NCBI GenBank assembly: GCA_026991225.1
Contig: JALXCB010000130.1
Location: 1 to 47,101 of the forward strand
DNA: 47,101 nucleotides
Direction: 5' to 3'
Origin: Anaerolineae bacterium
Lineage (GTDB): Bacteria > Chloroflexota > Anaerolineae > J102
This document shows, in pieces, positions 4,720 to 22,566 of this stretch (positions within the stretch are counted from its first letter, which is position 1; every line of letters starts with the position of its first letter). Both the position numbers and the translations under genes were made by a program. The notes beneath the pieces were generated by a model, which was not told where the DNA came from, did no database searches, and saw only the letters and a list, made by a program, of their open reading frames with translations.

Positions 4720-7314
4720 GTGAAACGCAAGTATTTTCTACTCCTAACACTGGTCGTGCTGCTGGCGCTGATGGTCACCACCGTCGCCTTTGCAGCAGGA
4801 CCGGAGAACTCACCCCACCAGCAGGGCGACCGCGAAGGTTGTATCGCCTGTCATGAGGGGATCGAGAACATTCGCCAGCCGGATACGCTGATGTATCAGC
4901 AGATCCAGGCGATGGGCGAGTGCACCGCCTGTCATGGCGGCGATCCCACCGTGACGGACGACAAGGACGCGGCGCACTCGGGTGAATTCTATCCGGATCC
5001 GGGTAGCATCTGGGTCTCGGACAAAACCTGTGGCAAGTGCCATCCCGGTTACACCGAACACCTGAAGCTGGCCCTGATGAACACCGAAATGGGCAAGATT
5101 CAGGGCAACCTGGTGACCTGGGGCGCGCAGAAGGATCGCAAGCCCATTTACGCCAACTACACCCTGGACGACACCGATGGTCTGACGCCCGCCGTGGGTA
5201 CGGACGTCTACAAGGAGTACATGGCCAAGATCATCGAGAACTATCCGGACAACTTCCCCACCCACGTGGATCAGCTGCCCAACCCCACGGTGGAAGAGAT
5301 CGTCCAGGACCCCTCCAAGGCGGCCTTCACCTATCAGCGCCAGCAATGTCAGCGCTGCCATGTGGGCGTGCAGCCTCGCACCAAGCGCGGCGACTGGCGC
5401 GGCGCCGGCTGCTCTTCCTGTCACATCCCCTACAGCAACGAGGGCTTCTACGAGGGCAACGATCCCACCATCCCCAAGGATGAGCCGGGCCATCTGCTGA
5501 CGCACCAGATTCAGGCCACCCGGGACGCCAAGGTCACCGTCAACGGCCACACTTACTCCGGCATCCCCGTCGAGACGTGCAACTCCTGCCATAACCGCGG
5601 CAAACGCATCGGCGTGAGCTACGAAGGCATTATGGAGTTCCCCTATGGCACGCCCTTCGACGAGAGCGGCATGGGGCAGCCCAAGCTGCACACCAAGAAA
5701 TACCTCTACATCAAGGACGACCTCCATCACTCGGTGGAGAGCCGGCCTGAGAACCCCAAAGGCGGCATGTTGTGCCAGGACTGCCACACCAGCCTGGAAA
5801 TGCACGGCGACGGCAACATGCCCGCCACCACCCTGGCCCAGGTGGAGATCGAGTGCGCTGACTGCCACGGCACCCCCGATGCCTATCCCTGGGAGCTGCC
5901 CATTGGCTTCGGCGAAGAAGAGCTGATGATGGGGCAGATCAGCGATCAGCCGCGCGGCCTGTGGGAGAGCGACACCTTGCCCGACAACAAGACGTACTTC
6001 GGCATGAAGTATGATCCCGAAGACGGCTTCCTGCTCACCACCCGCGGCAACCCCTTCGAGAATGTGGTCAAGAAGGGGGACGAGGTCATCGTCCATTCCG
6101 CCAGCGGCCTGGACTTCAAGGTGCCCCTGTTGAAGAAGATCAAAGAGGACGGCACCTGGAAGAGCAAGGACGCGGAAGTGGCCATGGACAAAGTCGCCAA
6201 GCACATGGACAACCTGGAATGCTACTCCTGCCATGCCGACTGGGCGCCTCAGTGCTATGGCTGCCATGTGACTATGGACTACTCTGAGGGCAAAGAGGAT
6301 AGCGACTGGGTGGCCCGCGGCAATGCACACATGGAAAACGGCCTCAACGACATGACCATCAAATCGCCCGGCAAGGCCAAGGAAGGGCGCTCCTACCTGC
6401 GTTGGGAAGAGCCTATCCTCGGCGTCAACGGCGAAGGTCGCGTCACCCCGCTCATCCCTGGCTGCCAGGTCATCTACACGGTCGTCGGGCCCAATGGCGA
6501 GAATCTGGCCCACAACGTCATCGCCACCAGCGAAGAAGCGCCCATGGCTCTGGATATGGCGCCGGTGCAGCCTCATACGGCTGGCCGTAAGGCCCGCACC
6601 TGCGAATCCTGCCACAATAATCCCAAAGCGTTGGGTTATGGTATCGAAGGCGGCCGCTTCCTGCAAGGGTACGAGAATGGCTTCATTGTGGACCTGGCCG
6701 ACGCAGAAGGCAACATCTTGCCCGCCAACGTCCAGTACCAGAGTCAGCCCGTACCCGCGCTCAAGACCGATCTGAGCCAGGTGGTGGACCCCGAGACGGG
6801 CGAACAGCTTATGGTGGTCGGTACCCACTGGCCTGCGTCCGCCCCTCTGAGCGCGGATCAACGCGCTCGCATGGAACGGGTGGGCCTGTGCATGGGCTGC
6901 CATCAGAACATGGCGGACGAAGCTTTCTGGACCAACGAAGTCATCGCCAAGTACGGCAAGATCACGACCAACGAAGAGCATATCGCCATGCTCAACCAGT
7001 TGGTGCATGACGCCGTGGCCAAGGGCGATGAGGAAGCGGCTCAGAAGTACCAGGACGCCATCAAGAAGCTGGAAGAGACCGAGGCCAAGCTGAAGGAAGC
7101 GGAAGCCAAAGCGCAAGAGGCCGAAGCCTCCGCCCAGGCGGCCGAGATGGAGAAGAAGAATCTCGAGGCCGAACTGGAGAAGGCCAAGGCCCAATCTCAA
7201 GTTGAGCAGGCGCCCGCGCCAGCCGAGGGCGGCAACAACCTGGTTGCCATCCTCATCGCGGCCCTGGTGGGCCTCGTGATTGGCGGCGGCGTCGCCTATG
7301 CCCTCAAGAAGTAA
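4720..7314 (+). CDS. Membrane-anchored dodecahaem cytochrome c with C-terminal coiled coil
   Basis: An 864-residue exported multihaem cytochrome. Seen: an N-terminal signal peptide (MKRKYFLLLTLVVLLALM..., cleavage near AFA-A26) and twelve CxxCH haem sites with first Cys at residues 41, 68, 104, 210, 231, 287, 352, 379, 501, 512, 628 and 724. An alternating Glu/Lys/Ala coiled coil follows at about 766-830. A Pro/Ala stretch comes next, then a single hydrophobic helix (about 843-861) and a Lys-Lys end, i.e. a tail anchor in the cytoplasmic membrane. No CxxCK site, which nitrite or tetrathionate reductases often use for the active haem, is present, so an electron-transfer or storage role is more likely than catalysis. 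It precedes the oxidase-like/alternative complex III genes on the same strand and may exchange electrons with them. I cannot place it in a named family. Confidence 0.85.
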   Translation: MKRKYFLLLTLVVLLALMVTTVAFAAGPENSPHQQGDREGCIACHEGIENIRQPDTLMYQQIQAMGECTACHGGDPTVTDDKDAAHSGEFYPDPGSIWVSDKTCGKCHPGYTEHLKLALMNTEMGKIQGNLVTWGAQKDRKPIYANYTLDDTDGLTPAVGTDVYKEYMAKIIENYPDNFPTHVDQLPNPTVEEIVQDPSKAAFTYQRQQCQRCHVGVQPRTKRGDWRGAGCSSCHIPYSNEGFYEGNDPTIPKDEPGHLLTHQIQATRDAKVTVNGHTYSGIPVETCNSCHNRGKRIGVSYEGIMEFPYGTPFDESGMGQPKLHTKKYLYIKDDLHHSVESRPENPKGGMLCQDCHTSLEMHGDGNMPATTLAQVEIECADCHGTPDAYPWELPIGFGEEELMMGQISDQPRGLWESDTLPDNKTYFGMKYDPEDGFLLTTRGNPFENVVKKGDEVIVHSASGLDFKVPLLKKIKEDGTWKSKDAEVAMDKVAKHMDNLECYSCHADWAPQCYGCHVTMDYSEGKEDSDWVARGNAHMENGLNDMTIKSPGKAKEGRSYLRWEEPILGVNGEGRVTPLIPGCQVIYTVVGPNGENLAHNVIATSEEAPMALDMAPVQPHTAGRKARTCESCHNNPKALGYGIEGGRFLQGYENGFIVDLADAEGNILPANVQYQSQPVPALKTDLSQVVDPETGEQLMVVGTHWPASAPLSADQRARMERVGLCMGCHQNMADEAFWTNEVIAKYGKITTNEEHIAMLNQLVHDAVAKGDEEAAQKYQDAIKKLEETEAKLKEAEAKAQEAEASAQAAEMEKKNLEAELEKAKAQSQVEQAPAPAEGGNNLVAILIAALVGLVIGGGVAYALKK

Positions 7315-7452
7315 GACCGACCGATCCTGCATGATGTGCGAGGCGCCTTAGTCCAGGAGAGGCACAAGTCGACGTCCTTTGAGAGAGGAGTTATCGAATA
7401 AACAACGCAACTCCGGGCCTTATAGGCGCATCGCACATCCTTACTTAAAATG

Positions 7453-7479
7453 CCGGCAGGCGCTCGCAACGCCTGCCGG
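7453..7479 (+). terminator. Strong hairpin after the dodecahaem cytochrome
   Basis: A perfect 10-bp inverted repeat (CCGGCAGGCG / CGCCTGCCGG, 7-base loop) is followed by a short T-containing stretch without a long T run. It could be a terminator or an mRNA-stabilising hairpin at the end of the cytochrome transcript, ahead of the TPR gene. Confidence 0.55.
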
Positions 7480-7561: not shown

Positions 7562-8488
7562 ATGGAACAGGCAATGACGCAGAAACACTCCGCATGGTGG
7601 CGCTGGCTTGTCGGCGCCATGGTGGCTGTTGTCGTTGGGGTTGGCGTTTGGTATGCACTGACGCATGTGTCTACATTGGGGGCCGCCAGTGGCCCCGAAA
7701 ACGCGAACGAAAGCGTGAGCGCCGAAGCAGAGACGACGGGCAGCGATCCCGCTGAATTGCCCATGGATGATTTTACCGAACTGGCGTTGGAGAAAGCCAA
7801 ACAGGGGGATGTGGATGGGGCTCTGGAGGCCTTTTCCGTGGCCATCGCCTCCAATCCCGATGGCGCATCCGTGCCCTATTACTATCGAGGATTGGTGTAT
7901 ATCGATCAGGGCAAGGTCATGGAAGCCATCGATGATTTCACCAAGGCCATCGAACTCGATAAGCATTTTCCGCAGGCCTATGCGGCCCGGGGCACCGCTT
8001 ATCTGATGACCAGCCGTCCTGCCAAAGCCGCGGAGGACTTCAACAAAGCCATCCAGCTTGATCCGAAAAACGCGACGACCTACGTCAATCGGGCGCGGGC
8101 CTATATGGGCCTGCAAATGCTGGAAGAAGCCGAATCGGACCTGAACACGGCCATCAAGCTGAATCCAAATCTGTTGCCCGCCTATTTCAACCGCGGCGTT
8201 CTCTTCATGCTCCAACAGCGCACCGAAGAGGCGCTGGCCGATTTCAACAAATGCGTGGAGATCAACCCCAACGCGCCCGCGCCTTACTTCAACCGGGCGG
8301 TCGCCTATATCGAATTGGGGGACAAAAAGGCCGCGGCCACGGACCTGGCCATCTATCTCACCCTCTCCAAGGATGAAGAGGGCAAGCATCAGGCCCGAGC
8401 GCTGCTGGATTCTCTCACCGGCACCCAGGGCCTGGACGTTCAACTTCAAGAGCAGGTGGACAGCGAGGATAACGGCCACAATCAGTAG
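7562..8488 (+). CDS. Membrane-anchored TPR protein
   Basis: 308 residues. The N-terminus is short and basic, then a single transmembrane helix (about 13-33, WLVGAMVAVVVGVGVWYAL) with an acidic Ser/Glu linker behind it. About six tetratricopeptide repeats follow from residue 63, with recurrent blocks such as AFSVAIASNPDG, DFTKAIELDK, DFNKAIQLDPKN, DLNTAIKLNPNL and DFNKCVEINPNA. Orientation by the positive-inside rule puts the TPRs outside the membrane. Known: such anchored TPR proteins act as assembly scaffolds for periplasmic or membrane complexes. Lying between the 12-haem cytochrome and the oxidase-like subunit, it is a reasonable assembly factor for this respiratory module, but that is inference. 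A weak -10 (TACAAT, 7521-7526) lies 35 bases upstream. Confidence 0.8.
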   Translation: MEQAMTQKHSAWWRWLVGAMVAVVVGVGVWYALTHVSTLGAASGPENANESVSAEAETTGSDPAELPMDDFTELALEKAKQGDVDGALEAFSVAIASNPDGASVPYYYRGLVYIDQGKVMEAIDDFTKAIELDKHFPQAYAARGTAYLMTSRPAKAAEDFNKAIQLDPKNATTYVNRARAYMGLQMLEEAESDLNTAIKLNPNLLPAYFNRGVLFMLQQRTEEALADFNKCVEINPNAPAPYFNRAVAYIELGDKKAAATDLAIYLTLSKDEEGKHQARALLDSLTGTQGLDVQLQEQVDSEDNGHNQ

Positions 8489-8682: not shown

Positions 8683-8823
8683 CCACGAAGACACGAAGGA
8701 GAAAAAGCGGCAGGTGGCAGGTGGCAAGTGGCAGGTGAAAAACACCGTAGTCAGAAAGACTTGCCACTTGCGACCTGCAAACCTGCGAACCTGCATTGTC
8801 TTTGTTCCTTCGAGCCTTCGTGG
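8683..8823. repeat. Nested hairpin repeat (CCACGAAG ... CTTCGTGG with GGCAGGTGGCAAGT words)
   Basis: Outer arms CCACGAAGACACGAAGG and CCTTCGAGCCTTCGTGG enclose a second inverted repeat made of 6-8 base words (GGCAGGTGGCAGGTGGCAAG... against ...CTTGCCACTTGCGACCTG), with tandem ACCTGC words after it. Closely similar copies lie at 10534-10654 and 46477-46624. Together with plain sequence on either side it occupies the 8489-8943 spacer, where no gene is visible. Confidence 0.75.
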
Positions 8824-8943: not shown

Positions 8944-10533
8944 ATGGCAAGCGCTCCATCTGCGGCAGCCGCCGCAGCACCCAAGTTGACCTATTGGAAT
9001 GCCAGTTACACCTTCAAATCCTGGTTGTTGACCACCGATCATAAACGCATTGCGTTTTTGTATCTGCTGGTGGTCTCCGGGTTTGCCGCTTTCGGGCTTG
9101 GCACAGCGGTGATCTTGCGGCTGGAGTTGTTTACGCCGCAACAAGAACTTTTTCAAGATATCTACGCCCGCATGTTTACGCTGCATGGGGGCGCCATGGT
9201 GTATCTGTTCATGTTGCCGGCCATGCTGGGCGTGTTGGGCAATTTCGCCGTCCCCTTGATGATCGGGGCGAAGAATGTGGCCTTTCCCCGTCTCAACCTG
9301 CTCACCTTCTATATTTTCACCTTTGGCAGCAGTGGCATCGTCATGGAGGCGGCGTTTGGAGGGGCGGACGCCGGTTGGAATTTCCTGGCTCCGTACGCCA
9401 CCCTCTACACGCCCTCCCGGGTTCTGCCCGCCCTGGCCATCATCATGATCGCCGGGTTTTCGGTGTTTTTGATGGCCGTCAACCTCCTGTTCACGGTGCA
9501 TTGCCGCCGGGTGAAGGGGTTGGACTGGCAGGATCTGCCGTTCACCGTGTGGGGCTATTACCTGGTCAGCATCGGCATCATTGCTGGCAGTTTCTTCATG
9601 TTCGTGTGGGTGTTCTTTACCGCGACCATGCGGGAACAGATGCTGGGATATGTGAACTACGGGCTGAATCTGAATCCGCAGGTGACGGTGCAGAGTTTTT
9701 GGATTTTTGCGCAGACTTCCGTTTACATGATGTTGCTGCCCGCGGTGGGGATCGTTGCCGACATCATCGAGACTTTCGCCCGTCGCCCCCTGGTGGGCCG
9801 CAAAGGCGTCGAGCACGCGATGATTTCGCTGGCGGTGCTGATGTCCTTGAGCTGGGGCGTGCACACCTTCACCAGCGACCAGTGGGCCTGGGTCAATCTC
9901 TTCTTCTCCCTGGCGGCTTTCCTCAGCGCCATCCCCCTGGCCATCATCATCCTCAGCCTGTTCGTCACCATCCGCAAGGGGCATCCGTCCTTCACGTCGC
10001 CCATGGTGTTCGCCTTCAGCGTTCTGGTCTCCCTGGCCCTGTATCTGGTCAGCAGTCTGGCGCTCTATTCGCCCGCGACCGCGCAGGCGGTCCTCCACAC
10101 CCAATTCGAATGGGCCAACTTCCATCTCCTGATGGCGGGAGTGGTGTTGACGGCGTTTCTGGCGGGCATGCACTATTGGTGGCCCAAGGCGACCGGGCGC
10201 ATGTATCCTGAGCTTTTCGCCAAGGTGACCGCCTGGATCATCTTCCTGGGCGTGTTGGGAACATTCCTGCCCGGCTTTTTGCTGGGGCTGTTGGGCATGC
10301 GCACCCGGGTAGTGGCCTATCCCGAAGGCTGGCTGATGCCCAATCAGCTCATCACCACCAGCACGCTCTTGTTGGTGCTGGGGCTTTCGCTGCCCTTGCT
10401 CTACTTCTTCTACGCGGTCTTCTGGGGCGAGCGCAGCGGTTCCAATCCCTGGGACTCGGCCACGTTGGAATGGCGCACCTCCTCGCCTCCTCCACCCGAG
10501 AATTTCACCGGCGACATGCTGGCCGACGTATAA
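8944..10533 (+). CDS. Haem-copper oxidase subunit I homologue lacking the CuB/high-spin haem site
   Basis: A 529-residue, roughly 12-helix membrane protein clearly homologous to A-type cytochrome c oxidase subunit I: LTTDHKRI near the start, TLHGGAMVYLF, GAKNVAFPRLN, WWPKATGRMY and a GLLGMRTRV end. Both low-spin haem ligands are present (H81 and H394). The catalytic residues are not. The HPEVY site reads AQTSVY (CuB His to Q257, proton-gate Glu to S259), the CuB His-His pair reads V306-H307, and the high-spin haem His is N392 in ANFH. The D-channel Asp is N111, and the K-channel segment VPTGIK reads IPLAII (330-335). The frame is full length and undamaged. Known: without these residues O2 cannot be reduced and proton pumping is lost. 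Inferred: a one-haem electron-transfer or quinone-facing subunit of a complex with the neighbouring alternative complex III. RBS GAAGGAG precedes ATG 8944. Confidence 0.92.
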   Translation: MASAPSAAAAAAPKLTYWNASYTFKSWLLTTDHKRIAFLYLLVVSGFAAFGLGTAVILRLELFTPQQELFQDIYARMFTLHGGAMVYLFMLPAMLGVLGNFAVPLMIGAKNVAFPRLNLLTFYIFTFGSSGIVMEAAFGGADAGWNFLAPYATLYTPSRVLPALAIIMIAGFSVFLMAVNLLFTVHCRRVKGLDWQDLPFTVWGYYLVSIGIIAGSFFMFVWVFFTATMREQMLGYVNYGLNLNPQVTVQSFWIFAQTSVYMMLLPAVGIVADIIETFARRPLVGRKGVEHAMISLAVLMSLSWGVHTFTSDQWAWVNLFFSLAAFLSAIPLAIIILSLFVTIRKGHPSFTSPMVFAFSVLVSLALYLVSSLALYSPATAQAVLHTQFEWANFHLLMAGVVLTAFLAGMHYWWPKATGRMYPELFAKVTAWIIFLGVLGTFLPGFLLGLLGMRTRVVAYPEGWLMPNQLITTSTLLLVLGLSLPLLYFFYAVFWGERSGSNPWDSATLEWRTSSPPPPENFTGDMLADV

Positions 10534-10736: not shown

Positions 10737-11408
10737 ATGTCCCAAATCTTTCATCCCTCCCTCAACCTGATCGCCAAAGCCATGGTGTTGGTCACTGCTG
10801 TCTTGTTGGTGGTTGGCTCGGTGGTCTCCTACGTGTTTGTGCGTTCGCCCTACATGCGCGGCACGACCATCGCCCGGGAACAGCCGGTCTTCTTCAGCCA
10901 TGAGCACCATGTGGGCGAATTGGGGCTGGACTGCCGCTATTGCCATGTGAATGTGGAGCGCAGCTCCTTCGCGGGCGTGCCCTCCACCGATATCTGCATG
11001 GGCTGCCATTCGCAGGTTTGGGCCAAAAGCCCCGCCATTGCGCCCATCAAGGAGAGCATGGAAAACAATCAGCCCATTGCCTGGAACCGGGTCAACAGCA
11101 TCCCAGACTACGCTTTCTTCAATCACAGCATCCATATCAACAAAGGCATCCCGTGCAAGGAGTGTCATGGGCGCGTGGACAAGATGGGGTGGACGCGGAA
11201 GGCTCAGCCCCTGTCCATGGAATGGTGTCTGAATTGTCATCGCAATCGGCAAGATCACCTGGTGCCGCGCGAGGAAGTCTTCAACATGGAGTATGAACTG
11301 CCGTCGGATCCTGCGGAACGGGAGGCGCTGCAAGCGGCCCTGGTGGCGAAGTATCACGTGGATGTGAAGCAGTTCCAGGTCACCGACTGCTCGGTATGTC
11401 ACCGATAA
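10737..11408 (+). CDS. actA: Alternative complex III subunit A, pentahaem cytochrome c
   Basis: 223 residues with one N-terminal membrane helix (about 15-36) and five CxxCH haem sites (CRYCH, CMGCH, CKECH, CLNCH and the C-terminal CSVCH), the count expected for ActA. The FFSHEHHVGELGLDCRYCH segment and the FNHSIHINKGIPCKECHG segment are typical of the family. Known: ActA is the periplasmic haem subunit that takes electrons from the iron-sulfur subunit ActB and passes them towards the cytochrome c or oxidase partner of this quinol oxidoreductase. It is the first of six consecutive act genes, and the oxidase-like subunit I lies immediately upstream. Confidence 0.92.
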   Translation: MSQIFHPSLNLIAKAMVLVTAVLLVVGSVVSYVFVRSPYMRGTTIAREQPVFFSHEHHVGELGLDCRYCHVNVERSSFAGVPSTDICMGCHSQVWAKSPAIAPIKESMENNQPIAWNRVNSIPDYAFFNHSIHINKGIPCKECHGRVDKMGWTRKAQPLSMEWCLNCHRNRQDHLVPREEVFNMEYELPSDPAEREALQAALVAKYHVDVKQFQVTDCSVCHR

Positions 11409-11512
11409 GGGCGAGGCATACCGCATTCATCTCCTACGTTGGCTTTCATTCTCGCAAATCGCACGAATCGTTTTGTAGCTCTTATCCCCTCACCTAATTC
11501 GAGAAGGTGATT

Positions 11513-14482
11513 ATGGACGAAAAACGTTTGCAAATTTCCGAACTTCGCAAGCGGCTTGCCGAGAAGACCGGCAAGACCTATTGGCGAAGTTTCAACGAGA
11601 TCGCGGACACCGAGGAATTCCGCGAGTTTCTGGAGCAGGAATTCCCCGCGGGCGCGGCCTATCTGGATGACCCCACCGGCGTCACCCGCCGCACCTTCCT
11701 CAAGATCATGGGCGCATCCATGGCGCTGGCCGGGCTCACCGCCTGCACGGCTACGAATCCCGAGAAGATCGTGCCTTATGTGCAGGCACCCGAGGAGATT
11801 ATACCGGGCGAGCCCCTGTTCTACGCCACCGCGTTCCCCATGGGCGGCTACGGCATGGGCGTTCTGGTGGAGACGCATGAGGGCCGCCCCACCAAACTCG
11901 AAGGCAACGAAAATCACCCCGCCAGTCTGGGGGCCACCGACCTCTTCGCGCAGGCTTCCATCCTCGATCTCTACGATCCCGACCGTTCCCGGCAGCCCAC
12001 GCGCAAGGGCCTGATGAAGTCCTGGGCCGATTTCACGGCCGAGCTGAGTGAGAACCAGAAGGGTTGGGGGGATGGCGAGGGCGTGCGCATCCTTACGGGC
12101 GCGGTGACGTCGCCCACGCTGGCCAGCCAGATCCAGGCGTTTCTGGAGCAGTATCCCGCGGCCCGGTGGCATCAATATGAGCCCGCTGGCCGCAACAGCG
12201 CCCGCGTGGGAGCCCGGCTCGCCTTCGGCGAGGACGCGGACGCGCTTTATCATTTCGACAAGGCCGATGTCGTCCTCGCCCTGGATGCGGATTTCCTCTC
12301 CTCCGGCCCCACCAGCGTGCGCTACGCCAAGGACTTCATGAAGCGCCGCCGCATCGCCGGCAAAGGCGAGGGTGATGTGGAGATGAACCGCCTCTATGTG
12401 GTGGAGGCGAATCTGACCAACACCGGCGTCATCGCCGACCATCGGCTGCCCATCCGGGCGGTGGATGTGGAGCATTTCGCCCGCTCGCTGGCCCAGAAGC
12501 TGGGGCTGGATGTGCAGGGCGGGGACCCCGAAAAGTATGGCGAATGGCTGGACACCCTGGCCGCGGACCTGGAGGCCCACAAAGGGAGCAGTATCGTCAT
12601 TCCCGGCGACCAGCAGGACCCGGTCGTCCACGCCCTGGCTCACGTCATCAATCAGGCCCTGGGCAACGTGGGCGAGACGGTCACCTATATCGAGCCGGTG
12701 GAGGCCAATCCGGTGGATCAGGACAAAGACCTGGCCCAATTGGCTGCGGACATGCACGCGGGCGCGGTCAAGGCCCTGTTCATCTTCGACGGCAACCCGG
12801 CGTACAGCGCCCCGGTGGATCTGAACTTCAAGGACGGGTTGAAAAAAGTTCCCTTCAGCGTCTATATCGGCGCCTTGCTGGATGAGACCGCGGTGGAGAG
12901 CCTGTGGTACATTCCCCGCAGCCATTATCTGGAATCGTGGGGCGATGTGCGGGCCTTCGACGGCACGGTGACCATCATGCAGCCCATGATCGAGCCGCTC
13001 TACCAGAGCAAGTCGGACTATGAACTGATGGCCGCGTTGCTGGGCCAGCCCGACGCCACGGGCCATGAGATCGTGAAGGGCTACTGGCAGGCGCACGCGA
13101 ACGCGGAGGATTTCGACAAATTCTGGCGCATTGCCCTGAATCGAGGCTATCTGGAGGATTCCCAGGCCCCGGAGAAGGCGGTCACCGCTTCGGTCGCGAG
13201 CGTGGCTCAGCCCGTCAATGTCTATTCGGATGCCATGGAGATCGTCTTCCGTCCCTCGCCCAGCCTGTGGGATGGCCGCTTCGCCAACAACGGCTGGCTG
13301 CAGGAGGTTCCCAACGGCATCACCAAGCTCACCTGGGACAATGCGGCCATGATGGCGCCCGCTCAGGCGGAGCGTCTGAATCTGGCCGAGGGGGATGTGG
13401 TCAGGCTGGAGTACTACGGCCAGGCGGTGGAAGCGCCTGTGTTGATCCTGCCCGGCCACGCCGACAACTCGGTCACCATCTATCTGGGCTACGGGCGGCA
13501 CGTCATCGGCGATGTGGGGCGGGATGTGGGCTTCAACGCCTACACCATCCGCACCGCCCACAAGCCCTGGCAGGATACGGGCCTGATCCTCGGTTACACT
13601 GGCAAGACCCACACCCTGGCCCGCACGCAGGATCACCATCTCATGGAGGGGCGGCCTCTGGTTGTCAGCGGCACCCTGGAGGAATTCAAGAAAAATCCCG
13701 AATTCGTGAAGGAGGAGACCGAATACGAGAAGATTTCCCTCTATCCCGAATTCGCCTACCGGGGCAACGCCTGGGGCATGACTGTGGACCTGAGCGCCTG
13801 CATCGGCTGCAACGCCTGCGTCATCGCCTGTCAGGCCGAGAACAATATCCCCATCGTGGGTAAGGAAGAGGTGCTGCGGGGCCGGGAGATGCACTGGATG
13901 CGCATCGATCGCTACTTCATCGGCGACCTGGACAATCCCGATGTGGTCTACCAGCCCGTCATGTGCCAGCAGTGCGAGGGCGCTCCTTGCGAGGTCGTTT
14001 GCCCGGCCGCGGCCACGGTGCACAGCCGGGAGGGCCTCAACGACATGGTCTACAATCGCTGCATCGGCACCCGGTATTGCGAAAACAACTGCCCCTACAA
14101 AGTGCGCCACTTCAACTTCTTCCAGTATGTGGATGTGGACACGCCTTCGTTGCAACTGATGCGCAATCCCAACGTCACTGTCCGCTCCCGCGGCGTTATG
14201 GAGAAATGCACTTACTGCGTGCAGCGCATCAACGCCGCCCGCATCCGCGCCAAGAAGGAGAACCGTCCGATTCGCGATGGCGAAGTCAAGACCGCCTGCC
14301 AGGCGGTGTGTCCCACCGACGCCATCGTGTTCGGCAATATCGAGGACAAAGAGAGCCAGGTGGCCCGATTGAAAGAGAGCCCCCTGAACTACGAGCTCCT
14401 GGGCGAACTCAACGTGCAGCCCCGCACCACCTACCTGGCCCGGCTGAAGAACCCCAACCCCAACCTTGCGGAGGAGGTGTAA
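11513..14482 (+). CDS. actB: Alternative complex III subunit B, molybdopterin-like/iron-sulfur fusion
   Basis: 989 residues from the ATG at 11513 (RBS GAGAAGG; a GTG six bases earlier is less likely). An internal twin-arginine signal R59-R60-TFLK shows export by Tat as a folded protein. Residues about 80-740 form the molybdopterin-oxidoreductase-like B1 domain, which in this family binds no cofactor. Residues about 750-970 form the B2 domain with four Cys clusters: C763 (CIGCNACVIAC), C818 (CQQCEGAPCEVVC), C850 (CIGTRYCENNCPYKVR) and C899 (CTYCVQRI...CQAVCP), matching three [4Fe-4S] and one [3Fe-4S]. Known role: relays electrons from quinol at ActC to the ActA haems. It is three bases from actC. 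Confidence 0.94.
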   Translation: MDEKRLQISELRKRLAEKTGKTYWRSFNEIADTEEFREFLEQEFPAGAAYLDDPTGVTRRTFLKIMGASMALAGLTACTATNPEKIVPYVQAPEEIIPGEPLFYATAFPMGGYGMGVLVETHEGRPTKLEGNENHPASLGATDLFAQASILDLYDPDRSRQPTRKGLMKSWADFTAELSENQKGWGDGEGVRILTGAVTSPTLASQIQAFLEQYPAARWHQYEPAGRNSARVGARLAFGEDADALYHFDKADVVLALDADFLSSGPTSVRYAKDFMKRRRIAGKGEGDVEMNRLYVVEANLTNTGVIADHRLPIRAVDVEHFARSLAQKLGLDVQGGDPEKYGEWLDTLAADLEAHKGSSIVIPGDQQDPVVHALAHVINQALGNVGETVTYIEPVEANPVDQDKDLAQLAADMHAGAVKALFIFDGNPAYSAPVDLNFKDGLKKVPFSVYIGALLDETAVESLWYIPRSHYLESWGDVRAFDGTVTIMQPMIEPLYQSKSDYELMAALLGQPDATGHEIVKGYWQAHANAEDFDKFWRIALNRGYLEDSQAPEKAVTASVASVAQPVNVYSDAMEIVFRPSPSLWDGRFANNGWLQEVPNGITKLTWDNAAMMAPAQAERLNLAEGDVVRLEYYGQAVEAPVLILPGHADNSVTIYLGYGRHVIGDVGRDVGFNAYTIRTAHKPWQDTGLILGYTGKTHTLARTQDHHLMEGRPLVVSGTLEEFKKNPEFVKEETEYEKISLYPEFAYRGNAWGMTVDLSACIGCNACVIACQAENNIPIVGKEEVLRGREMHWMRIDRYFIGDLDNPDVVYQPVMCQQCEGAPCEVVCPAAATVHSREGLNDMVYNRCIGTRYCENNCPYKVRHFNFFQYVDVDTPSLQLMRNPNVTVRSRGVMEKCTYCVQRINAARIRAKKENRPIRDGEVKTACQAVCPTDAIVFGNIEDKESQVARLKESPLNYELLGELNVQPRTTYLARLKNPNPNLAEEV

Positions 14483-14485
14483 GCT

Positions 14486-15856
14486 ATGGCGGCTTCCACA
14501 GATTCGGCTGAAGTCCCGGTCCTCGGTCCGGGGCAAACCTATGCGACCGTCACCGACCGCATCAGCGGCGTCATCCTCACCAAAGAGACGCCGCGAGGGT
14601 GGTGGATAGGCTTCGGCATCGCCTTTATGGTGATGATGCTGATGCTCTTTTCCCTGACGGTGTTGTTCGCCAAAGGCGTCGGCGTCTGGGGTCTGGACAA
14701 CACCGTGGCCTGGGGGTTCGCCATCGTCAACTTCGTGTGGTGGGTCGGTATCGGTCACGCCGGCACCCTGATCTCGGCCATCCTCCTGCTCTTCCGGCAG
14801 GAATGGCGCAATTCCATCAACCGCTTCGCCGAAGCCATGACCATTTTCGCGGTGGCCAACGCCGGGCTCTTCCCCATCATCCACACCGGTCGTCCATGGC
14901 TGGCTTACTGGCTCCTGCCCTATCCCAGCATGTTCCAGTTGTGGCCGCAGTTCCGCAGCCCTCTGCTGTGGGATGTGTTCGCCATCTCGACTTACGTGAC
15001 CATCTCCCTCCTCTTCTGGTATGTAGGGCTCATTCCCGACTTCGCCACCCTGCGGGATATGGCGGATAACAAGGTTGTGCGGCGGATTTACGGCGTCTTC
15101 GCCCTGGGCTGGCGGGGCGCGGCCCGGCACTGGGCGCAATACTCCCGGGCCTCGTTGCTGCTGGCGGCCCTGGCCACGCCTCTGGTGGTGTCGGTGCACA
15201 GCGTGGTCAGCTTCGACTTCGCGGTCAGCTCCGTGCCCGGCTGGCACACCACCTTCCTGCCACCCTACTTCGTCTCGGGCGCCATCTTCTCCGGCTTCGC
15301 CATGGTGCTCACCCTGGCCATTCCCATCCGCAAGTACTTCCACATGGAGGATTTCATCACCGACCGCCATCTGGAGAATATGGCCAAGGTGATGCTGGCG
15401 ACGGGATTGATCGTGTTCTACGCCTACATTATGGAAGTATTCTTCGCCTGGTACAGCGGCAATCAGTATGAGCAATTCATGATTTACAATCGCATGACCG
15501 GGCCTTACGCGCCTTACTACTGGTCGCTGATCCTGGCCAACGGCGTCATCCCACAGTTGCTGTGGTTCAAGAGGGTGCGACGCACGCCCTGGATTCTATT
15601 CATCATTGCCATCATCGTGAACATTGGCATGTGGCTGGAGCGATTCATCATCGTGGTCACCAGTCTGCATCGGGAATATCTGCCTTCTACCTGGACGTAC
15701 TATGCAGGCACGTTTTGGGACTGGTCGCTCTACATCGGCACCCTGGGCTTCTTCTTCGCCCTCATCTTCCTCTTCCTGCGGGTGCTGCCCATGATCAATA
15801 TGTTCGAAATGAAAGAACTGGTTCACCACCTTTCCCACCGAGGCAAGGAGCATTAA
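14486..15856 (+). CDS. actC: Alternative complex III subunit C, NrfD-like quinol-binding membrane protein
   Basis: 456 residues, about 10 membrane helices, of the NrfD/PsrC family. Typical segments: TPRGWWIGFGIAF at helix 1, WWVGIGHAGTLISAILLL (the conserved Gly-His-Ala before the quinone site), HTGRPWLAYWLLPYP, and HSVVSFDFAVSSVPGWHTT with the conserved His/Asp pair. Known: ActC binds menaquinol at the periplasmic side and is proposed to form a half proton channel. It starts three bases after actB and ends three bases before actD, so the genes are translationally linked. Confidence 0.94.
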   Translation: MAASTDSAEVPVLGPGQTYATVTDRISGVILTKETPRGWWIGFGIAFMVMMLMLFSLTVLFAKGVGVWGLDNTVAWGFAIVNFVWWVGIGHAGTLISAILLLFRQEWRNSINRFAEAMTIFAVANAGLFPIIHTGRPWLAYWLLPYPSMFQLWPQFRSPLLWDVFAISTYVTISLLFWYVGLIPDFATLRDMADNKVVRRIYGVFALGWRGAARHWAQYSRASLLLAALATPLVVSVHSVVSFDFAVSSVPGWHTTFLPPYFVSGAIFSGFAMVLTLAIPIRKYFHMEDFITDRHLENMAKVMLATGLIVFYAYIMEVFFAWYSGNQYEQFMIYNRMTGPYAPYYWSLILANGVIPQLLWFKRVRRTPWILFIIAIIVNIGMWLERFIIVVTSLHREYLPSTWTYYAGTFWDWSLYIGTLGFFFALIFLFLRVLPMINMFEMKELVHHLSHRGKEH

Positions 15857-15859
15857 ATC

Positions 15860-16390
15860 ATGAGCGAATCGGTATATGGCCTTATCGCCAGATTCGACAC
15901 GCCCGAAGCGGTGGTGGAAGCGACCCGTCGGGCGCGCGAGGCTGGCTATAAAAAGATGGAAGCCTATTCGCCGTTCCCCATCGAGGAACTGACGGAAGTC
16001 CTGGATTTCAAGCCCAAGATCCAGTATCTGGTCTTGATCGGTGGCATCCTGGGCGCGATCACAGGGTTCGCCTTGCAATACTACGCCTCGGTCATCGCCT
16101 ATCCCCTCATCATCGGCGGACGGCCTTTCAATAGCTGGCCTGCATTCATCGTCGTCGAATTCGAGTTGACCATTCTCTTCGCGGGGCTGGCCGCGGTCTT
16201 TGGCATGTTGGGGCTGAACGGCTTTCCTCATCCCTATCATCCCGTGTTCAACGCCAAGGACTTCAACCTGGTCTCGCGAGACAAGTTCTTCCTGGTCATC
16301 GAATCCAACGATCCGCGTTTCGATCGGGATCGCACTCGGGCCTTTCTGGAAAGCCTGCATCCCGAGGAAGTCACCGAAGTGCATCCATAG
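15860..16390 (+). CDS. actD: Alternative complex III subunit D (DUF3341)
   Basis: 176 residues with the family pattern: a short cytoplasmic N-terminal fold (VYGLIARFDTPEAVVEATRRAREAG, then YKKMEAYSPFPIEEL), two membrane helices (about 53-75 and 90-112), and a C-terminal soluble part with HPVFNAKDFNLVSRDKFFL. Known: ActD is an accessory membrane subunit lying against ActC/ActF, without a redox cofactor. It sits between actC (3-base gap) and actE (9-base gap). Confidence 0.93.
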   Translation: MSESVYGLIARFDTPEAVVEATRRAREAGYKKMEAYSPFPIEELTEVLDFKPKIQYLVLIGGILGAITGFALQYYASVIAYPLIIGGRPFNSWPAFIVVEFELTILFAGLAAVFGMLGLNGFPHPYHPVFNAKDFNLVSRDKFFLVIESNDPRFDRDRTRAFLESLHPEEVTEVHP

Positions 16391-16399
16391 GAGATTGCC

Positions 16400-17002
16400 A
16401 TGCAACCCAAACGCACCTTTCACACCTTACGTCGAGCGGGATGGATTTGCGCGGTCTTTTGTCTGGCCTTGATCCTGACCGGGTGTACGATGACCATGAA
16501 AGATCAGCCTCGGGTCAATCCTTATGAGCCCGCTCCCTTCTTCGGCGACCAGGGTTCGGCCCTGCCGCCCGTGGAAGACACCGTGCCCTATGGCATGGCC
16601 AACACCGACGAAGCCCTCTACACCGGGCAGGTGGACGGCCAGTATGTGGAAGAGTATCCCTTCATGATCACGAAGGAGGGGCTGGAATACGGCCGTCAGC
16701 GCTACGACATCTACTGTGCACCCTGTCATGGCTATGCGGGCAACGGGGATGGCATGGTGGTGCAACGCGGCTTCCGTCAACCCCCCACCTTCCATCAAGA
16801 TCGCCTGCGGGAGGCCCCTCCTGGCTACTTCTTCTACGCCATCACCAATGGCTTCGGAACCATGCCCAGCTACGCCAACCGCATTCCGGTCCACGATCGG
16901 TGGCTCATCATCGCCTATATCGAGGCCCTGCAACTCAGCCAGCACGCGCCCGTGTCTGAGTTGCCTCAGGAGGATGTGGCGAAGCTGGAGGCTACGCAAT
17001 GA
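16400..17002 (+). CDS. actE: Alternative complex III subunit E, monohaem lipoprotein cytochrome c
   Basis: 200 residues. A lipoprotein signal with lipobox LTGC puts the lipidated Cys at residue 29. One haem site C106-APCH is followed by GYAGNGDGMV, and a Met-containing segment (GFGTMPSYANRIP) near residue 155 supplies the likely axial Met ligand. The MKDQPRVNPYEPAPFF segment just after the signal is a family hallmark. Known: ActE is the periplasmic monohaem subunit and likely exit point for electrons. Its last four bases overlap the actF start (ATGA). Confidence 0.93.
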   Translation: MQPKRTFHTLRRAGWICAVFCLALILTGCTMTMKDQPRVNPYEPAPFFGDQGSALPPVEDTVPYGMANTDEALYTGQVDGQYVEEYPFMITKEGLEYGRQRYDIYCAPCHGYAGNGDGMVVQRGFRQPPTFHQDRLREAPPGYFFYAITNGFGTMPSYANRIPVHDRWLIIAYIEALQLSQHAPVSELPQEDVAKLEATQ

Positions 17003-18219
17003 AGGAGCAAACCATGACTCGAATTCAGGCAGACGAGAAACTGCTCAAGCGACTGGGGTCCTACCAGAAAGCGTCGCTGATCGTCGGCGTGCTGGGGATT
17101 CTCGTCCTCATCGCGGGGTATTTCCTGGGCGCGGAGGACTTCTTCCCCGGCTATCTCATCGGCTGGATGTTCTGGATGCAAGTGGCCCTGGGCGCGTTGG
17201 TAATTCTCATGATTCAGAACACCGTGGGCGGTCGCTGGGGGCTGATCATTCAGCGGGTGGTGGAAGCCGCCACCATGACCATCCCGCTGTTGGGCGTGCT
17301 GTTCATCGTCGTGATCATCGGCATTCCCCATCTCTATGAATGGTCTCATGCCGAGGTCGTGGCCCACGATGAGCTTTTGCAGCACAAGGCCCCCTATCTG
17401 AACACACCCTTCTTCATCATCCGCTCGGTGATTTATTTCGTGCTGTGGGGCGGCATCGCCTGGCTGCTGCGAAAATGGTCCGTGAAGCTGGATGAGCATC
17501 CCGACGATGCGGCCACGCGCAAGAAACTGCGCAATCTCAGCGCTCCGGGCATTCTCCTCTTCGGTTTCACCGTGACGTTCGCTTCGGTGGACTGGATGAT
17601 GTCGCTGGAGCCTCACTGGTACTCCACCATTTATGGCATGATGTTCGGCGTGGGCGCTCTGGCGTCGGGCTTCGCCTTCAGCATTGTCGTCCTCATGGGC
17701 ATGGTCAAATACAAGCCCTGGTCGGGGATCATTCAAACCCTGGATGTCAGCGACCTGGGCAACTGGCTGCTGGCGGCCGTCATGCTGTGGGCCTATATGG
17801 CTTTCTCGCAGTTCCTCATCATCTGGTCCGCCAACTTGCCTGAGGAGACCACCTGGTATATTGCCCGCACCACCGGCGGCTGGCAATGGGTGGCCATCAT
17901 CAACGTTTTCCTCCATTTCTTCCTGCCCTTCTTCCTGCTGCTCTCGCGTGGGACGAAGAAGGAGCCCGGGCGTTTGAAAAAGGTCGCCTGGCTGGTGCTG
18001 ATCATGCGTTTCGTGGATCTGGTGTGGATGATCTATCCGGCATTCTCGCCCGGCAAACTGGCCTTTCCCTGGGTCTCCCTGGCCGCGCTGATTGGCGTCG
18101 GCGGTCTCTTCCTGGCGATTTTCTTCCATCAGGTGGCGAAGGTTAGCGTGCCGCCGTTGTACGATTCCCGATTACCGGTCACGCAAGCTTCTGAGGAGGC
18201 GCACGGTCATGTCAGCTAA
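16999..18219 (+). CDS. actF: Alternative complex III subunit F, NrfD-like membrane protein
   Basis: 406 residues with about 10 membrane helices, a paralogue of ActC. Recognisable features are GWMFWMQVALGALVILMIQ, an extracytoplasmic loop with HDELLQHKAPYLN, and FTVTFASVDWMMSLEPHWYST, which is diagnostic of ActF. Known: the second core membrane subunit, proposed to take part in proton translocation though it lacks a quinone site in solved complexes. Its ATG overlaps the actE stop, and its own end overlaps the next small gene by 11 bases. Confidence 0.93.
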   Translation: MKEQTMTRIQADEKLLKRLGSYQKASLIVGVLGILVLIAGYFLGAEDFFPGYLIGWMFWMQVALGALVILMIQNTVGGRWGLIIQRVVEAATMTIPLLGVLFIVVIIGIPHLYEWSHAEVVAHDELLQHKAPYLNTPFFIIRSVIYFVLWGGIAWLLRKWSVKLDEHPDDAATRKKLRNLSAPGILLFGFTVTFASVDWMMSLEPHWYSTIYGMMFGVGALASGFAFSIVVLMGMVKYKPWSGIIQTLDVSDLGNWLLAAVMLWAYMAFSQFLIIWSANLPEETTWYIARTTGGWQWVAIINVFLHFFLPFFLLLSRGTKKEPGRLKKVAWLVLIMRFVDLVWMIYPAFSPGKLAFPWVSLAALIGVGGLFLAIFFHQVAKVSVPPLYDSRLPVTQASEEAHGHVS

Positions 18220-18759: not shown

Positions 18760-18858
18760 TCGATTTGATATTGGATGCTGGATATTCGATATCGGGATTC
18801 TCATTGGCTGGCCCGATATCCGATAACCAATACCCAATACCCAATATCCAAAATCAGG
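18760..18858. repeat. Short-word inverted repeat (GATATT / AATATCC words)
   Basis: Words such as GATATTGGATGCTGGATATTC and GATATCGGG face CCCGATATCCGATAACCAAT and the tandem ACCCAATACCCAATATCC, forming an imperfect long hairpin about 10 bases before the oxidase-II-like start. With element A it fills the 18551-18866 spacer, and no gene is seen there. Confidence 0.7.
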
Positions 18859-18866
18859 TGTGCCTT

Positions 18867-20768
18867 ATGCCTACATTTTTATCCCTCCCCGAAAAGGCTT
18901 CATCCGTTGCTGGCTCCGTCAATGTCCTGCTGTTGACGATGTTGGCGGTTGGCTTTTTCTTCGTCATCTGGATCGCGCTGCTCATGTTTGAATCCATGCT
19001 GGGCGGCGATGAAAAGAAGAAGGAGCCTTCGTCCGACCAGGATCGGACTGTGCCCAAATGGTGGTCTTTTGGCGTCGGTCTGGTGATCCTCATCTTTTTC
19101 TTCTGGTCATCCTTCCTCTATCTGAACAATATCAAAGTGCCGGATAACGTCGAGGATGTGATCTCAGTGACCAAACACTGGGTGTGGAAGTTCCAACATG
19201 CGCCCGATGGCCAGGGTGAGATCGATGAACTCCATGTGGCTGTAGGACAGCCTGTCCGCTTGATCATGACCTCGCAGGATTCGACGCACAGCCTCTTCGT
19301 GCCCAGCTTCCTGCAACAACAGGACATTCTGCCCGGCAAGTTCACCGCCATGTGGTTCACCGTCACCAAGGCGGGCGAGTATCCTTTCTACACCACCCAG
19401 TACAGCGGCACCGGTTACACGAAAATGGCGGGCAAGATCATCGCCATGGAGCCGGAAGCGTATCAGGCGTGGCTTTCGGGCAAGCCTGTGGGCCCGCCCG
19501 CGGGCGGTGGCGGCGGCGAGGCTTTGGTGGCGCAGGGCGAACAACTCTTCACCAGTCCCGATCTAGGCTGTTCGGGCTGCCATACGGACAAGGATACGCC
19601 TACTGCGCCCACCCTGCACGGCATCTACGGCAAAGAGGTCGAACTGGATGATGGTTCGACTGTGACGGTGGACGACGATTATCTGCATGAATCCATCGTC
19701 GATCCCGCGGCCAAGCTCGTCAAGGGCTACAATCCCATTATGCCCGCCACCTATGCAGATTTGAGCGATGACCAACTCAACGCCCTCATCGCCTATATCA
19801 AATCCCTCAGCGGCGTCGCTCCCGAAGCGGGCGGCGGCGAGACCGGCGGCGAGGCGGCCGCGCCCGGCACGGCCACGGAGCTTCCCCCCGCGGCCATGGA
19901 GATTTACACCGCCAGCGGCTGCAACGCCTGCCACGGCCAGAACCTGGAGGGCATGATCGGCCCCAATCTGGCCGGGCTGAGTGCAAGCTATGTGGAGAAT
20001 TTGGTGCGCAGCGGCGTGGCGGGCACGGCCATGACCGCTTACGGCCCGGATCAGATCAGCGATGAGGACCTGGCGACCCTGGCGCAGGGCATCGAAAGCC
20101 TTTCCTTCGCGGCGACGGGCATGCAGGTGAACCCCACCGTGGCGCAGCATCTGCAAGAGGCGGCGCAGGCGTTTGCGTCGGGCGATATGGATGGAACCAA
20201 GGCTGCGCTGGAGGCTGCGCTGAAGGCCTGCGGCCAGCCCGGCGGCCAGGTCACCCTCAAGACCATGATCCGCAAGGCCGAAGAGGGCGATGCGGATTAT
20301 CTGAAGATGCGGTTCGATATCCTTCTGGCGGGCAAAGCGAGCGAGGGCGGTCAGGAGGAAGGGCCCGCGGCCGAACCCACCCCGGAGCCCACCCAAGCGC
20401 CCGAAGCGACGCCCACCCAAGCGCCCGAAGCGACGCCCACCGAAGCCGCCGAAGCGCCGGTCCCGCCCGCGGGCGAGGGTGATCCCAAGGCTGGAGAAGA
20501 GGCGTTCATGGCGAACGGTTGCAACGCCTGCCATACCGACCAGGACACGCCCGTGGCGCCCACCCTGCACGGCATCTACGGCAAGGAGATCAAGCTGGCT
20601 GATGGTTCGACGGTGGTGGTGGATGACGAGTACCTTCACGAATCCATCGTCGATCCCCAAGCCAAGCTGGCGGAAGGTTACGGGCCGGTGATGCCTCCCA
20701 CCTACGCCGATTTCGATCCGCAAGTCATCCTGGACATCATCGCCTACATCAAATCGCTGGCGCAATAG
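18867..20768 (+). CDS. Cytochrome oxidase subunit II homologue without CuA, fused to three cytochrome c domains
   Basis: 633 residues from ATG 18867. Two membrane helices (about 15-40 and 70-92) precede a cupredoxin fold (about 95-200). At the CuA site H141 (STHSLFVP) and M188 remain, but the CAELCGTGHAKM-type loop reads TTQYSGTGYTKM. The two Cys are T177 and S181, the bridging Glu position is Q179, and the second His is Y185, so a CuA centre cannot form. Three cytochrome c domains follow with haem Cys at C235 (CSGCH), C352 (CNACH) and C552 (CNACH). Domains 1 and 3 are near-duplicates (TPxAPTLHGIYGKE, YLHESIVDP, then a Met-Pro ligand loop). A Pro/Thr/Ala linker with repeated QAPEATPT precedes domain 3. 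Inferred: a periplasmic haem wire replacing copper, partner of the catalytically dead subunit I at 8944. Confidence 0.92.
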   Translation: MPTFLSLPEKASSVAGSVNVLLLTMLAVGFFFVIWIALLMFESMLGGDEKKKEPSSDQDRTVPKWWSFGVGLVILIFFFWSSFLYLNNIKVPDNVEDVISVTKHWVWKFQHAPDGQGEIDELHVAVGQPVRLIMTSQDSTHSLFVPSFLQQQDILPGKFTAMWFTVTKAGEYPFYTTQYSGTGYTKMAGKIIAMEPEAYQAWLSGKPVGPPAGGGGGEALVAQGEQLFTSPDLGCSGCHTDKDTPTAPTLHGIYGKEVELDDGSTVTVDDDYLHESIVDPAAKLVKGYNPIMPATYADLSDDQLNALIAYIKSLSGVAPEAGGGETGGEAAAPGTATELPPAAMEIYTASGCNACHGQNLEGMIGPNLAGLSASYVENLVRSGVAGTAMTAYGPDQISDEDLATLAQGIESLSFAATGMQVNPTVAQHLQEAAQAFASGDMDGTKAALEAALKACGQPGGQVTLKTMIRKAEEGDADYLKMRFDILLAGKASEGGQEEGPAAEPTPEPTQAPEATPTQAPEATPTEAAEAPVPPAGEGDPKAGEEAFMANGCNACHTDQDTPVAPTLHGIYGKEIKLADGSTVVVDDEYLHESIVDPQAKLAEGYGPVMPPTYADFDPQVILDIIAYIKSLAQ

Positions 20769-20985: not shown

Positions 20986-21210
20986 CTGATTGACTGACAA
21001 AACACGTTTTGGTCTGCTGTGGTCGCCTATACTGTCGACTGAGGTCGTACCATTCCAGGCCTGCGGCCAGTGGACGGCCTCCGCCGTCCATGTTCATGAT
21101 GGAAATCAGGTCGACGAAGGTCGACCACAGGCGCGAAGCGCCTAAAGAGCCCGGGTTTACTCGGTGAATACGGTCGGAAAGGAAAGCCTCAAGATTTGTC
21201 AGTCAACCAG
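20986..21210. mobile_element. 225-bp MITE with 15-bp inverted ends and 9-bp target duplication
   Basis: Left end CTGATTGACTGACAA (20986-21000) and right end TTGTCAGTCAACCAG (21196-21210) are inverted repeats with one mismatch in 15. CTCCGTACG lies directly outside both (20977-20985 and 21211-21219), a perfect 9-bp target duplication. The interior has the GGCCTGCGGCC, TGGACGGCCTCCGCCGTCCA and GGCGCGAAGCGCC hairpins shared with 2625-2822. Known: ends starting CTG with 9-bp duplications are typical of IS4-family (IS10/IS50-like) elements, so such a transposase may mobilise it; this is inference. It sits just ahead of lutB. Confidence 0.88.
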
Positions 21211-21303
21211 CTCCGTACGTCATCCAGAGAAGTGCGGGCCTGCGAAATCCTGACATTGTCGGCGGATTTGGCGATAGCGCCTCGAGATGGGACAATAACG
21301 CCC

Positions 21304-22551
21304 ATGACCGTTGCCGACTCTCAGACGCGCTTCATGTTCCATCGCATGGGCAGCCTGACCACGGCGGCCCGCGAGAAGGCCTGGGCGCGCGTGCCCGAAG
21401 CCGATGCGCTCAAAGCGCGCGCGGTGCGCGCCCGAGATCGCGTGCTGACCGATCTGTCCGCCTATCTCGACCGACTGGAGGAAGCCGCCAGAGGCAACGG
21501 CGTCACGGTCATGCGGGCCGCGGGCGCACAAGAAGCCAACCGCCAGATCATCGAGACTTTGCGCAAGCTGGGCGCCACCGAAACCCTGCGCAATCATCAT
21601 CCCTTGCTGGATGAGATCAAGCTGGATGACGCGGCAAAGGCCAACGCGGTCCGACTCACCCCGCTGCATTTGGGCGACTTTCTGGCCCAACTGACGGGAG
21701 AACACTCCGGCCATCCCATCTGGCCCGTGGGGCATCTCACGGTGGAAGCCATCAGCGAGGCGCTTCAGGAGAAATGGCGCGTTCCCAAAACCTACGATCC
21801 CGATCATCTCACCAGCACCGTGCGCATGCGCCTCCGCCGGTTGCTGTTGCGGGCCGATGCCGCGGTTCTAGGCGTCAACTTTGCAGTAGCGGATGGAGGC
21901 GTCTTCGCCCTGCTGGACAATGATGGGCACAACGCCAGCCTCGTTTCACTGGTCCGACATGGGATCCTGATCCTGAGCGTTGATCAGATCGTGGCCGATA
22001 TGGCGGACCTGGAGACGTTGACGCGGGTTTTCGCACTCAGCGCCTGGGGCAGATCCCGGCCAGCGTATATCACCCATCTACAAAAAGCAACCCCCCAAGG
22101 CGTCGATGGCCCCCGCACTCTGCACCTGATTCTGGTGGACAATCGTCGTAGCGAGATCATCGATCAGGGATTTGGGGAGGCGTTGCGGTGCATTCACTGT
22201 GGAGCCTGTCACACCACCTGCCCGGTTTATCAGCAGATCGGCGGGGCGGGCTATGCCCATTCACCCTACACAGGCCCCATCGGCACGGTGCTCAACCCCC
22301 TGTTGCTGACCCCGGAGCTGGGTGAACCCCAGGCCTATCTGTGTGACGGCGCGGGTCTGTGTGCCGCCACCTGTCCCTTGAATATCGATTTCTCTCGACT
22401 CCATCTGGAACATCGGCAGCGCCTGGTGAACGCCGGGCGCGCGGGCGATGACCGTCGCTTTTTTGCTTTGTGGCGACGTTTTCTGGGGATGAAACGTCTA
22501 TTCATTCCCTATTGGCGTCGCGCCACCCGACCGCCTGACGAAGTGCGGTAG
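21304..22551 (+). CDS. lutB: LutB-like iron-sulfur protein (LUD domain)
   Basis: 415 residues from ATG 21304. Earlier in-frame codons run into the 225-bp mobile element and are not used. The LUD domain spans about 40-280 (GAQEANRQIIETLRKLGA, then GVNFAVADGGVFALLDNDGH, the nucleotide- or substrate-loop of the family). A C-terminal ferredoxin part follows with C296-IHC-GAC-HTTC306-P and a second motif C347-DGAGLC353-AATC357-P. The second motif has A350 where family members have the middle Cys. Known: LutABC oxidises L-lactate to pyruvate, with LutB carrying two iron-sulfur clusters. Here lutA is not adjacent. lutC follows after 15 bases. The missing Cys suggests a [3Fe-4S] or altered second cluster. 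Confidence 0.85.
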   Translation: MTVADSQTRFMFHRMGSLTTAAREKAWARVPEADALKARAVRARDRVLTDLSAYLDRLEEAARGNGVTVMRAAGAQEANRQIIETLRKLGATETLRNHHPLLDEIKLDDAAKANAVRLTPLHLGDFLAQLTGEHSGHPIWPVGHLTVEAISEALQEKWRVPKTYDPDHLTSTVRMRLRRLLLRADAAVLGVNFAVADGGVFALLDNDGHNASLVSLVRHGILILSVDQIVADMADLETLTRVFALSAWGRSRPAYITHLQKATPQGVDGPRTLHLILVDNRRSEIIDQGFGEALRCIHCGACHTTCPVYQQIGGAGYAHSPYTGPIGTVLNPLLLTPELGEPQAYLCDGAGLCAATCPLNIDFSRLHLEHRQRLVNAGRAGDDRRFFALWRRFLGMKRLFIPYWRRATRPPDEVR

Positions 22552-22566
22552 GCCCAAAATGCTGTT

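Follow-up and report, generated by a model that had tools for sequence, protein, structure and literature searches.

A putatively membrane-tethered twelve-haem cytochrome of the ExtM superfamily from an Anaerolineae bacterium

Introduction

ExtM (GSU2935) is a poorly understood cytochrome of Geobacter and is represented in NCBIfam by the model NF040943. Its gene is associated with genes for Rieske and cytochrome b proteins (PMC2825233), as are genes of the family described here. The NCBI name of NF040943 connects ExtM with selenite and tellurite reduction; in Geobacter, however, the protein with a demonstrated selenite phenotype is the porin ExtI and not ExtM (PMC5877670). Two further groups of multihaem proteins bear on the present case. 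In the thiosulfate dehydrogenase TsdA, the Cys-ligated haem is the catalytic haem (PMC4423706), and NrfA and SirA are matured by dedicated haem lyases of the CcmF/CcmH type (PMC6976685).

Here we analyze a twelve-haem cytochrome encoded in a 47,101-nucleotide stretch of DNA (the window; contig JALXCB010000130.1, assembly GCA_026991225.1) from an Anaerolineae bacterium of the phylum Chloroflexota. Literature searches returned no papers on its family or on coiled-coil multihaem cytochromes of Chloroflexota.

Layout of the Gene and Its Product

The cytochrome gene lies at 4720..7314 on the + strand and encodes 864 amino acids. The open reading frame starts with GTG, and the purine-rich GAGGGAGGA is located just 5' of the start. 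A fast-evolving signal peptide, recognized from the sequence (residues ~1-26, 4720..4797, cleavage near AFA/AGP), precedes the haem body (residues ~27-764, 4798..7011), which was delimited by motif positions and alignments. In a motif scan, the protein contained exactly 12 CxxCH motifs, at residues 41, 68, 104, 210, 231, 287, 352, 379, 501, 512, 628, and 724, and neither a CxxCK nor a CX15CH motif; CxxCK was absent from all homologues as well. Sequence and tail comparisons place a Glu/Lys/Ala-rich stalk (residues ~768-830, 7021..7209) and a Pro/Ala/Gly linker (residues ~832-841, 7213..7242) after the haem body. The protein ends with a transmembrane helix followed by KK (residues ~842-864, 7243..7311), which is conserved in the near clade. 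The maximum 19-residue Kyte-Doolittle mean of this helix (~842-862) is 2.69. Judged from hydropathy alone, by which all membrane segments were called, the protein has the signal peptide and the one C-terminal hydrophobic helix of a membrane-anchored cytochrome.

A previous sequence-only reading had reported the twelve CxxCH motifs, the lack of CxxCK, and the succession of a ~65-residue Glu/Lys/Ala stalk, a Pro/Ala linker, and a single C-terminal helix, and all of these were recovered here. It had also called the helix a membrane tail anchor. The one C-terminal helix is present; given the Sec-type signal, however, it is strictly speaking an ordinary type-I-like anchor and not a tail anchor.

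Compared with five near relatives, the body has a dN of 0.03-0.10 and a dS of 0.57-0.91, and the stalk evolves faster than the haem body in the same dN/dS comparison. The low dN/dS, well below 1, indicates that the gene is under purifying selection. Together with the conservation of 24 of 24 haem cysteines and 12 of 12 haem histidines in the 78 homologues aligned, it shows that the reading frame did not arise by chance.

Relation to ExtM

The best NCBIfam match of the window protein was to NF040943 (E 2.8e-72, 243.9 bits, best stretch residues 203-642); the curated cut-off of 800 bits was not reached. Pfam returned general multihaem matches only for the haem body. The score against the OmcA/MtrC model TIGR03507 was 21.2 bits, below its cut-off of 209, and the NrfA and SirA/MccA models in Pfam and NCBIfam gave no match above threshold. 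A sequence search of the structure database with the protein and a 53-sequence profile yielded no meaningful solved relative. Myocilin structures, which appeared there with E-values of 0.2-0.8, were taken as chance matches.

All 12 haem sites align in 77 sequences of the family and in 32 of the ExtM type, and both groups contain equivalents of His86, His262, His336, His495, His619, and Cys582 (the latter within PGCQ). In one Desulfuromusa genome, a true ExtM (1103 bits) is encoded alongside a protein of the window family (166 bits); thus, the two are separate families and not one-to-one orthologues. By these alignments and scores, the window protein belongs to the ExtM superfamily as a member of a separate, unnamed family, and is not an ExtM equivalog. 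The branches leading to ExtM are very long, which makes its placement in the tree unreliable, and we used the tree for clades within the family only. The architecture had previously been described as unusual, a description that no longer fits: the body is of a known kind, to which a variable tether is attached. The sequence-only reading had named beforehand the result that would count against it, namely that a known catalytic family sharing this C-terminus would match clearly; such a match was looked for and did not appear.

Further ExtM-type paralogues scoring under the ExtM cut-off were observed in a Campylobacterales genome, where Rieske and cytochrome b genes are also present (L083), and in Desulfosediminicola (L088).

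Conserved Residues and Candidate Haem Ligands

A lone cysteine outside the haem motifs, Cys582 (codon 6463..6465), is invariant in the 78 family members and has an equivalent in all 32 ExtM-type relatives examined, but not in ExtN. In the same alignment of 78 sequences, eleven additional histidines are invariant or nearly so within the family (residues 86, 262, 324, 336, 337, 362, 459, 495, 619, 703, and 754). Counted with Cys582, they provide 12 candidate distal ligands for 12 haems. The agreement in number is suggestive and not proof; Cys582 could instead have a structural role. At position 362 (codon 5803..5805), the window family has an invariant His, whereas all 32 ExtM-type proteins have Met. 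His/Met exchange is a typical ligand swap, and His362 is therefore a probable distal haem ligand. Many charged residues are also invariant in the family alignment, and some members have CX4CH in place of CxxCH at haem 1 or haem 3.

Distribution of the Family

A scan of genome contigs recovered 80 homologous loci. The body is ~50-60% identical to that of the window protein in alphaproteobacteria (Rhodobacterales, Kiloniellales, and Roseibium), some gammaproteobacteria, Desulfobacterota, Campylobacterota, a planctomycete, and one record labelled Thermus/Deinococcus; the record labels of metagenome-assembled genomes may be wrong. As judged by these matches, the haem body is common to Chloroflexota and at least four other phyla. 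Within Chloroflexota the family is patchy: only one of 400 evenly sampled genomes contained a full-length match, and this was the genome of the window itself, which has one copy of the cytochrome.

Stalk and Membrane Anchor

The Chloroflexota sequences form one clade of 28 in the tree. Two are cut by contig ends, leaving 26 readable tails. A C-terminal membrane helix is present in 23 of these 26 (including L024, whose helix sits behind an assembly gap), compared to none of the 50 homologues from other phyla. The remaining three (L014, L017, and L027) end right after the haem body. Given that the Chloroflexota sequences form a single clade, the anchor was probably gained once and later lost, rather than acquired in 23 independent events.

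The stalk is less uniform. In the window protein, the best heptad phase has 67% hydrophobic a/d positions; these are mostly Ala, which suggests a weak coiled coil of the Ala type. The longest stalk run free of Pro and Gly varies from 21 to 69 residues across the Chloroflexota members, and several have runs of just 21-30 residues or Pro/Ala-rich linkers. The long coiled coil of the window protein is thus among the longest forms of a tether that varies; what the members conserve is the anchor rather than the coiled coil.

Chloroflexota cells are generally considered to have a single membrane. The anchor and stalk are an addition in a single phylum, as expected where an otherwise freely periplasmic body needs a tether in a one-membrane cell. 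The previous suggestion that the stalk spans the wall of a single-membrane bacterium agrees with this restriction of the anchor to one phylum; however, a 65-residue wall-spanning spacer is not general, given the short or Pro/Ala-rich stalks and the three tailless members.

Gene Neighbourhoods

In the window, the cytochrome is followed on the same strand by a gene for a TPR protein with an N-terminal membrane helix (7562..8488), a recurrent downstream partner recognized through profile matches and neighbourhood comparison. The planctomycete partner is 30% identical to it. We infer that the Chloroflexota TPR protein could act as a CcmI/NrfG-like chaperone. The interval between the two genes contains a 16-nt inverted repeat (7333-7348 / 7424-7439) and a strong 12-pair hairpin (7453-7479), a possible terminator or regulatory site that makes co-transcription of the cytochrome with complex III uncertain. 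Also on the + strand, and assigned through profile matches, are cytochrome/quinol oxidase subunit I (8944..10533), an alternative complex III (10737..18219) with ActA (5 CxxCH), ActB, ActC (NrfD), ActD, and ActE, with ActF assigned by position only, and, next to it, an oxidase subunit II fused to class-I c haems (18765..20768; 3 CxxCH by motif count). These cox and act genes adjoin the cytochrome in the window and its near relatives. Short repeats of GGCAGGT units, some direct and some inverted, are located 5' of oxidase subunit I (8709-8778). A pair of LUD-domain genes at 21196-23112, the first with Fe-S domains, resembles LutB/LutC of lactate utilization.

In other hosts, neighbouring genes were identified by simple ORF calling. 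In other Chloroflexota, the cytochrome gene is often preceded by genes for a sensor kinase and a NarL-type regulator and often followed by the TPR gene. In L018 (Chloroflexota), the next genes encode a GltD-like protein, an ExtP-like cytochrome b, an ExtQ-like protein, a Rieske protein, and a class-I cytochrome; by sequence clustering, L019, L020, and L023 have most of this downstream set too. The tailless Chloroflexota member L027 has an NrfH/NapC-like multihaem protein upstream. In Desulfobacterota, a small multihaem cytochrome, a DsrO-like protein, and a DsrP protein (380 bits, cut-off 350) precede the homologue, and in Campylobacterota it is adjoined by an FCSD-type flavoprotein and thioredoxin-like proteins.

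In alphaproteobacteria, the homologue adjoins genes for a Crp/Fnr-type regulator, a Rap1a-family protein, and a haem-lyase set of the CcmF/CcmH/CcmI type (CcmH/NrfF-type). The adjoining CcmF is an extra copy in all six alphaproteobacterial genomes tested, where the other copies are just 51-55% identical to the query CcmF. Haem-lyase genes adjoin the homologue in alphaproteobacteria only. The small Rap1a-family protein, from a family annotated as immunity proteins, recurs directly 3' of the cytochrome in this group (e.g., L036:10386-10784).

The neighbouring genes of five outlying homologues (L046, L053, L058, L061, and L068) were uninformative, and no porin or extracellular partner was recognized among the neighbours searched. 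Of 32 carriers, 9 had a soxB match that exceeded the cut-off, and none of these was from Chloroflexota. Sulfur physiology is therefore not uniform among carriers, and soxB gives no support for a sulfur role in Chloroflexota.

Discussion

We favour, with moderate confidence, the interpretation that this ExtM-superfamily protein is a tethered multihaem oxidoreductase linked to quinones, with a substrate site at the haem beside Cys582. In the predicted topology, the C-terminal helix and a flexible stalk of variable length would keep the exported twelve-haem body at the outer surface of the cytoplasmic membrane. Electrons would be exchanged with the quinone pool through the host's own quinone:cytochrome module, for which the adjacent alternative complex III is the candidate contact in the window. 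They would travel through the chain of haems, with one special haem next to Cys582, its putative ligand, as their source or destination; a small substrate may be converted there. A link to quinones is suggested by the finding that differing quinone modules (complex III, Rieske/cytochrome b, DsrO/DsrP, and NrfH-like) occur beside one conserved body. The Cys-haem site of TsdA and the selenite/tellurite name of the ExtM family make the conversion of a sulfur or selenium species the leading guess, at modest confidence.

The sequence-only reading had noted the lack of CxxCK, which does not make the protein non-catalytic. The invariant lone Cys, the invariant charged residues, and, in some hosts, the additional haem-lyase genes point towards an enzyme, and we prefer an enzyme over a wire because of the strict conservation, this Cys, and the dedicated maturation genes. 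The lyase argument is weakened by two points: the haem motifs known to have dedicated lyases are atypical ones, whereas all those in the family are CxxCH or CX4CH, and the lyase genes adjoin in alphaproteobacteria only. More tentatively, and at a level that we would still call doubtful, the family may represent a new class of multihaem enzymes in at least five phyla, which would use a Cys/His-ligated haem for sulfur or selenium oxyanion chemistry, draw on host-dependent quinone modules, and be membrane-tethered in Chloroflexota.

The stalked body could instead be a non-catalytic conduit that delivers quinone-pool electrons through the cell wall, either to acceptors outside the cell or to partner cells, though we consider this rather unlikely. 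Twelve haems, together with a stalk and an anchor confined to one phylum, would suit such a role, as would the Pfam similarity to domains II/IV of MtrC/MtrF and the listing of ExtM's cluster among porin-cytochrome conduits (PMC13194489). However, typical conduit cytochromes are poorly conserved even between Geobacter species (PMC2825233), and the strong conservation across phyla, the invariant charged residues, and the invariant free Cys are unlike them. The neighbours searched revealed no recognizable porin or extracellular partner for a conduit, and in diderm relatives the body is without a membrane anchor.

The cox and act genes beside the cytochrome would fit a tethered carrier that links alternative complex III to the neighbouring aa3-type oxidase and replaces a mobile cytochrome c. 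This role seems improbable: the link could already be provided by ActE and by the c haems of the subunit II fusion, homologues elsewhere adjoin DsrO/DsrP, NrfH-like, and FCSD genes, and a one-electron carrier has no need for twelve haems. The high number of haems is also compatible with an electron store, or capacitor, on the outer face of the membrane without a specific substrate; we regard this as very improbable, as it accounts neither for the strict conservation and the invariant Cys nor for the extra haem lyases.

Cys582 offers one residue that bears on the question of enzyme or wire. ExtM is now joined to a wider, strongly conserved family, which is present in cultured marine bacteria (e.g., Roseibium, Tropicimonas, and Shimia). 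The Chloroflexota form provides an example of a periplasmic multihaem body tethered in cells held to have one membrane.

Comparison with Known Systems

The window protein has local Pfam similarity to MtrC/MtrF and OmcA (residues 207-385); however, it contains twelve haems instead of ten and has neither a lipoprotein signal nor a recognized porin partner. The extra lyase set beside the alphaproteobacterial homologue recalls NrfA and SirA/MccA. The CxxCK active-site haem of NrfA and the octahaem reductases is missing from the window protein and all homologues, and the CX15CH-type haem site of MccA/SirA is missing from the window protein. With TsdA, SoxA, and DsrJ the family has in common a conserved Cys as candidate haem ligand and, in Desulfobacterota, an operon with DsrO- and DsrP-like subunits; no sequence relation to these proteins was seen, and Cys ligation in the window family is a candidate only.

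The unnamed periplasmic proteins of Rhodobacterales, Desulfobacterota, and Campylobacterota belong to the same family, with 50-60% identity across the body and common ligand candidates. Unlike the window protein, they end ~33-52 residues past the last haem motif and lack a stalk or membrane helix. ExtM is also shorter (~600-690 amino acids), without stalk or anchor; it has Met in place of His362 and lacks His324, His459, and His703. In contrast to these differences, ExtM and the window protein have in common twelve collinear haems, the PGCQ sequence, and the motifs CHNR..R, [HM]GDG, and CY.CH...QCYGCH.
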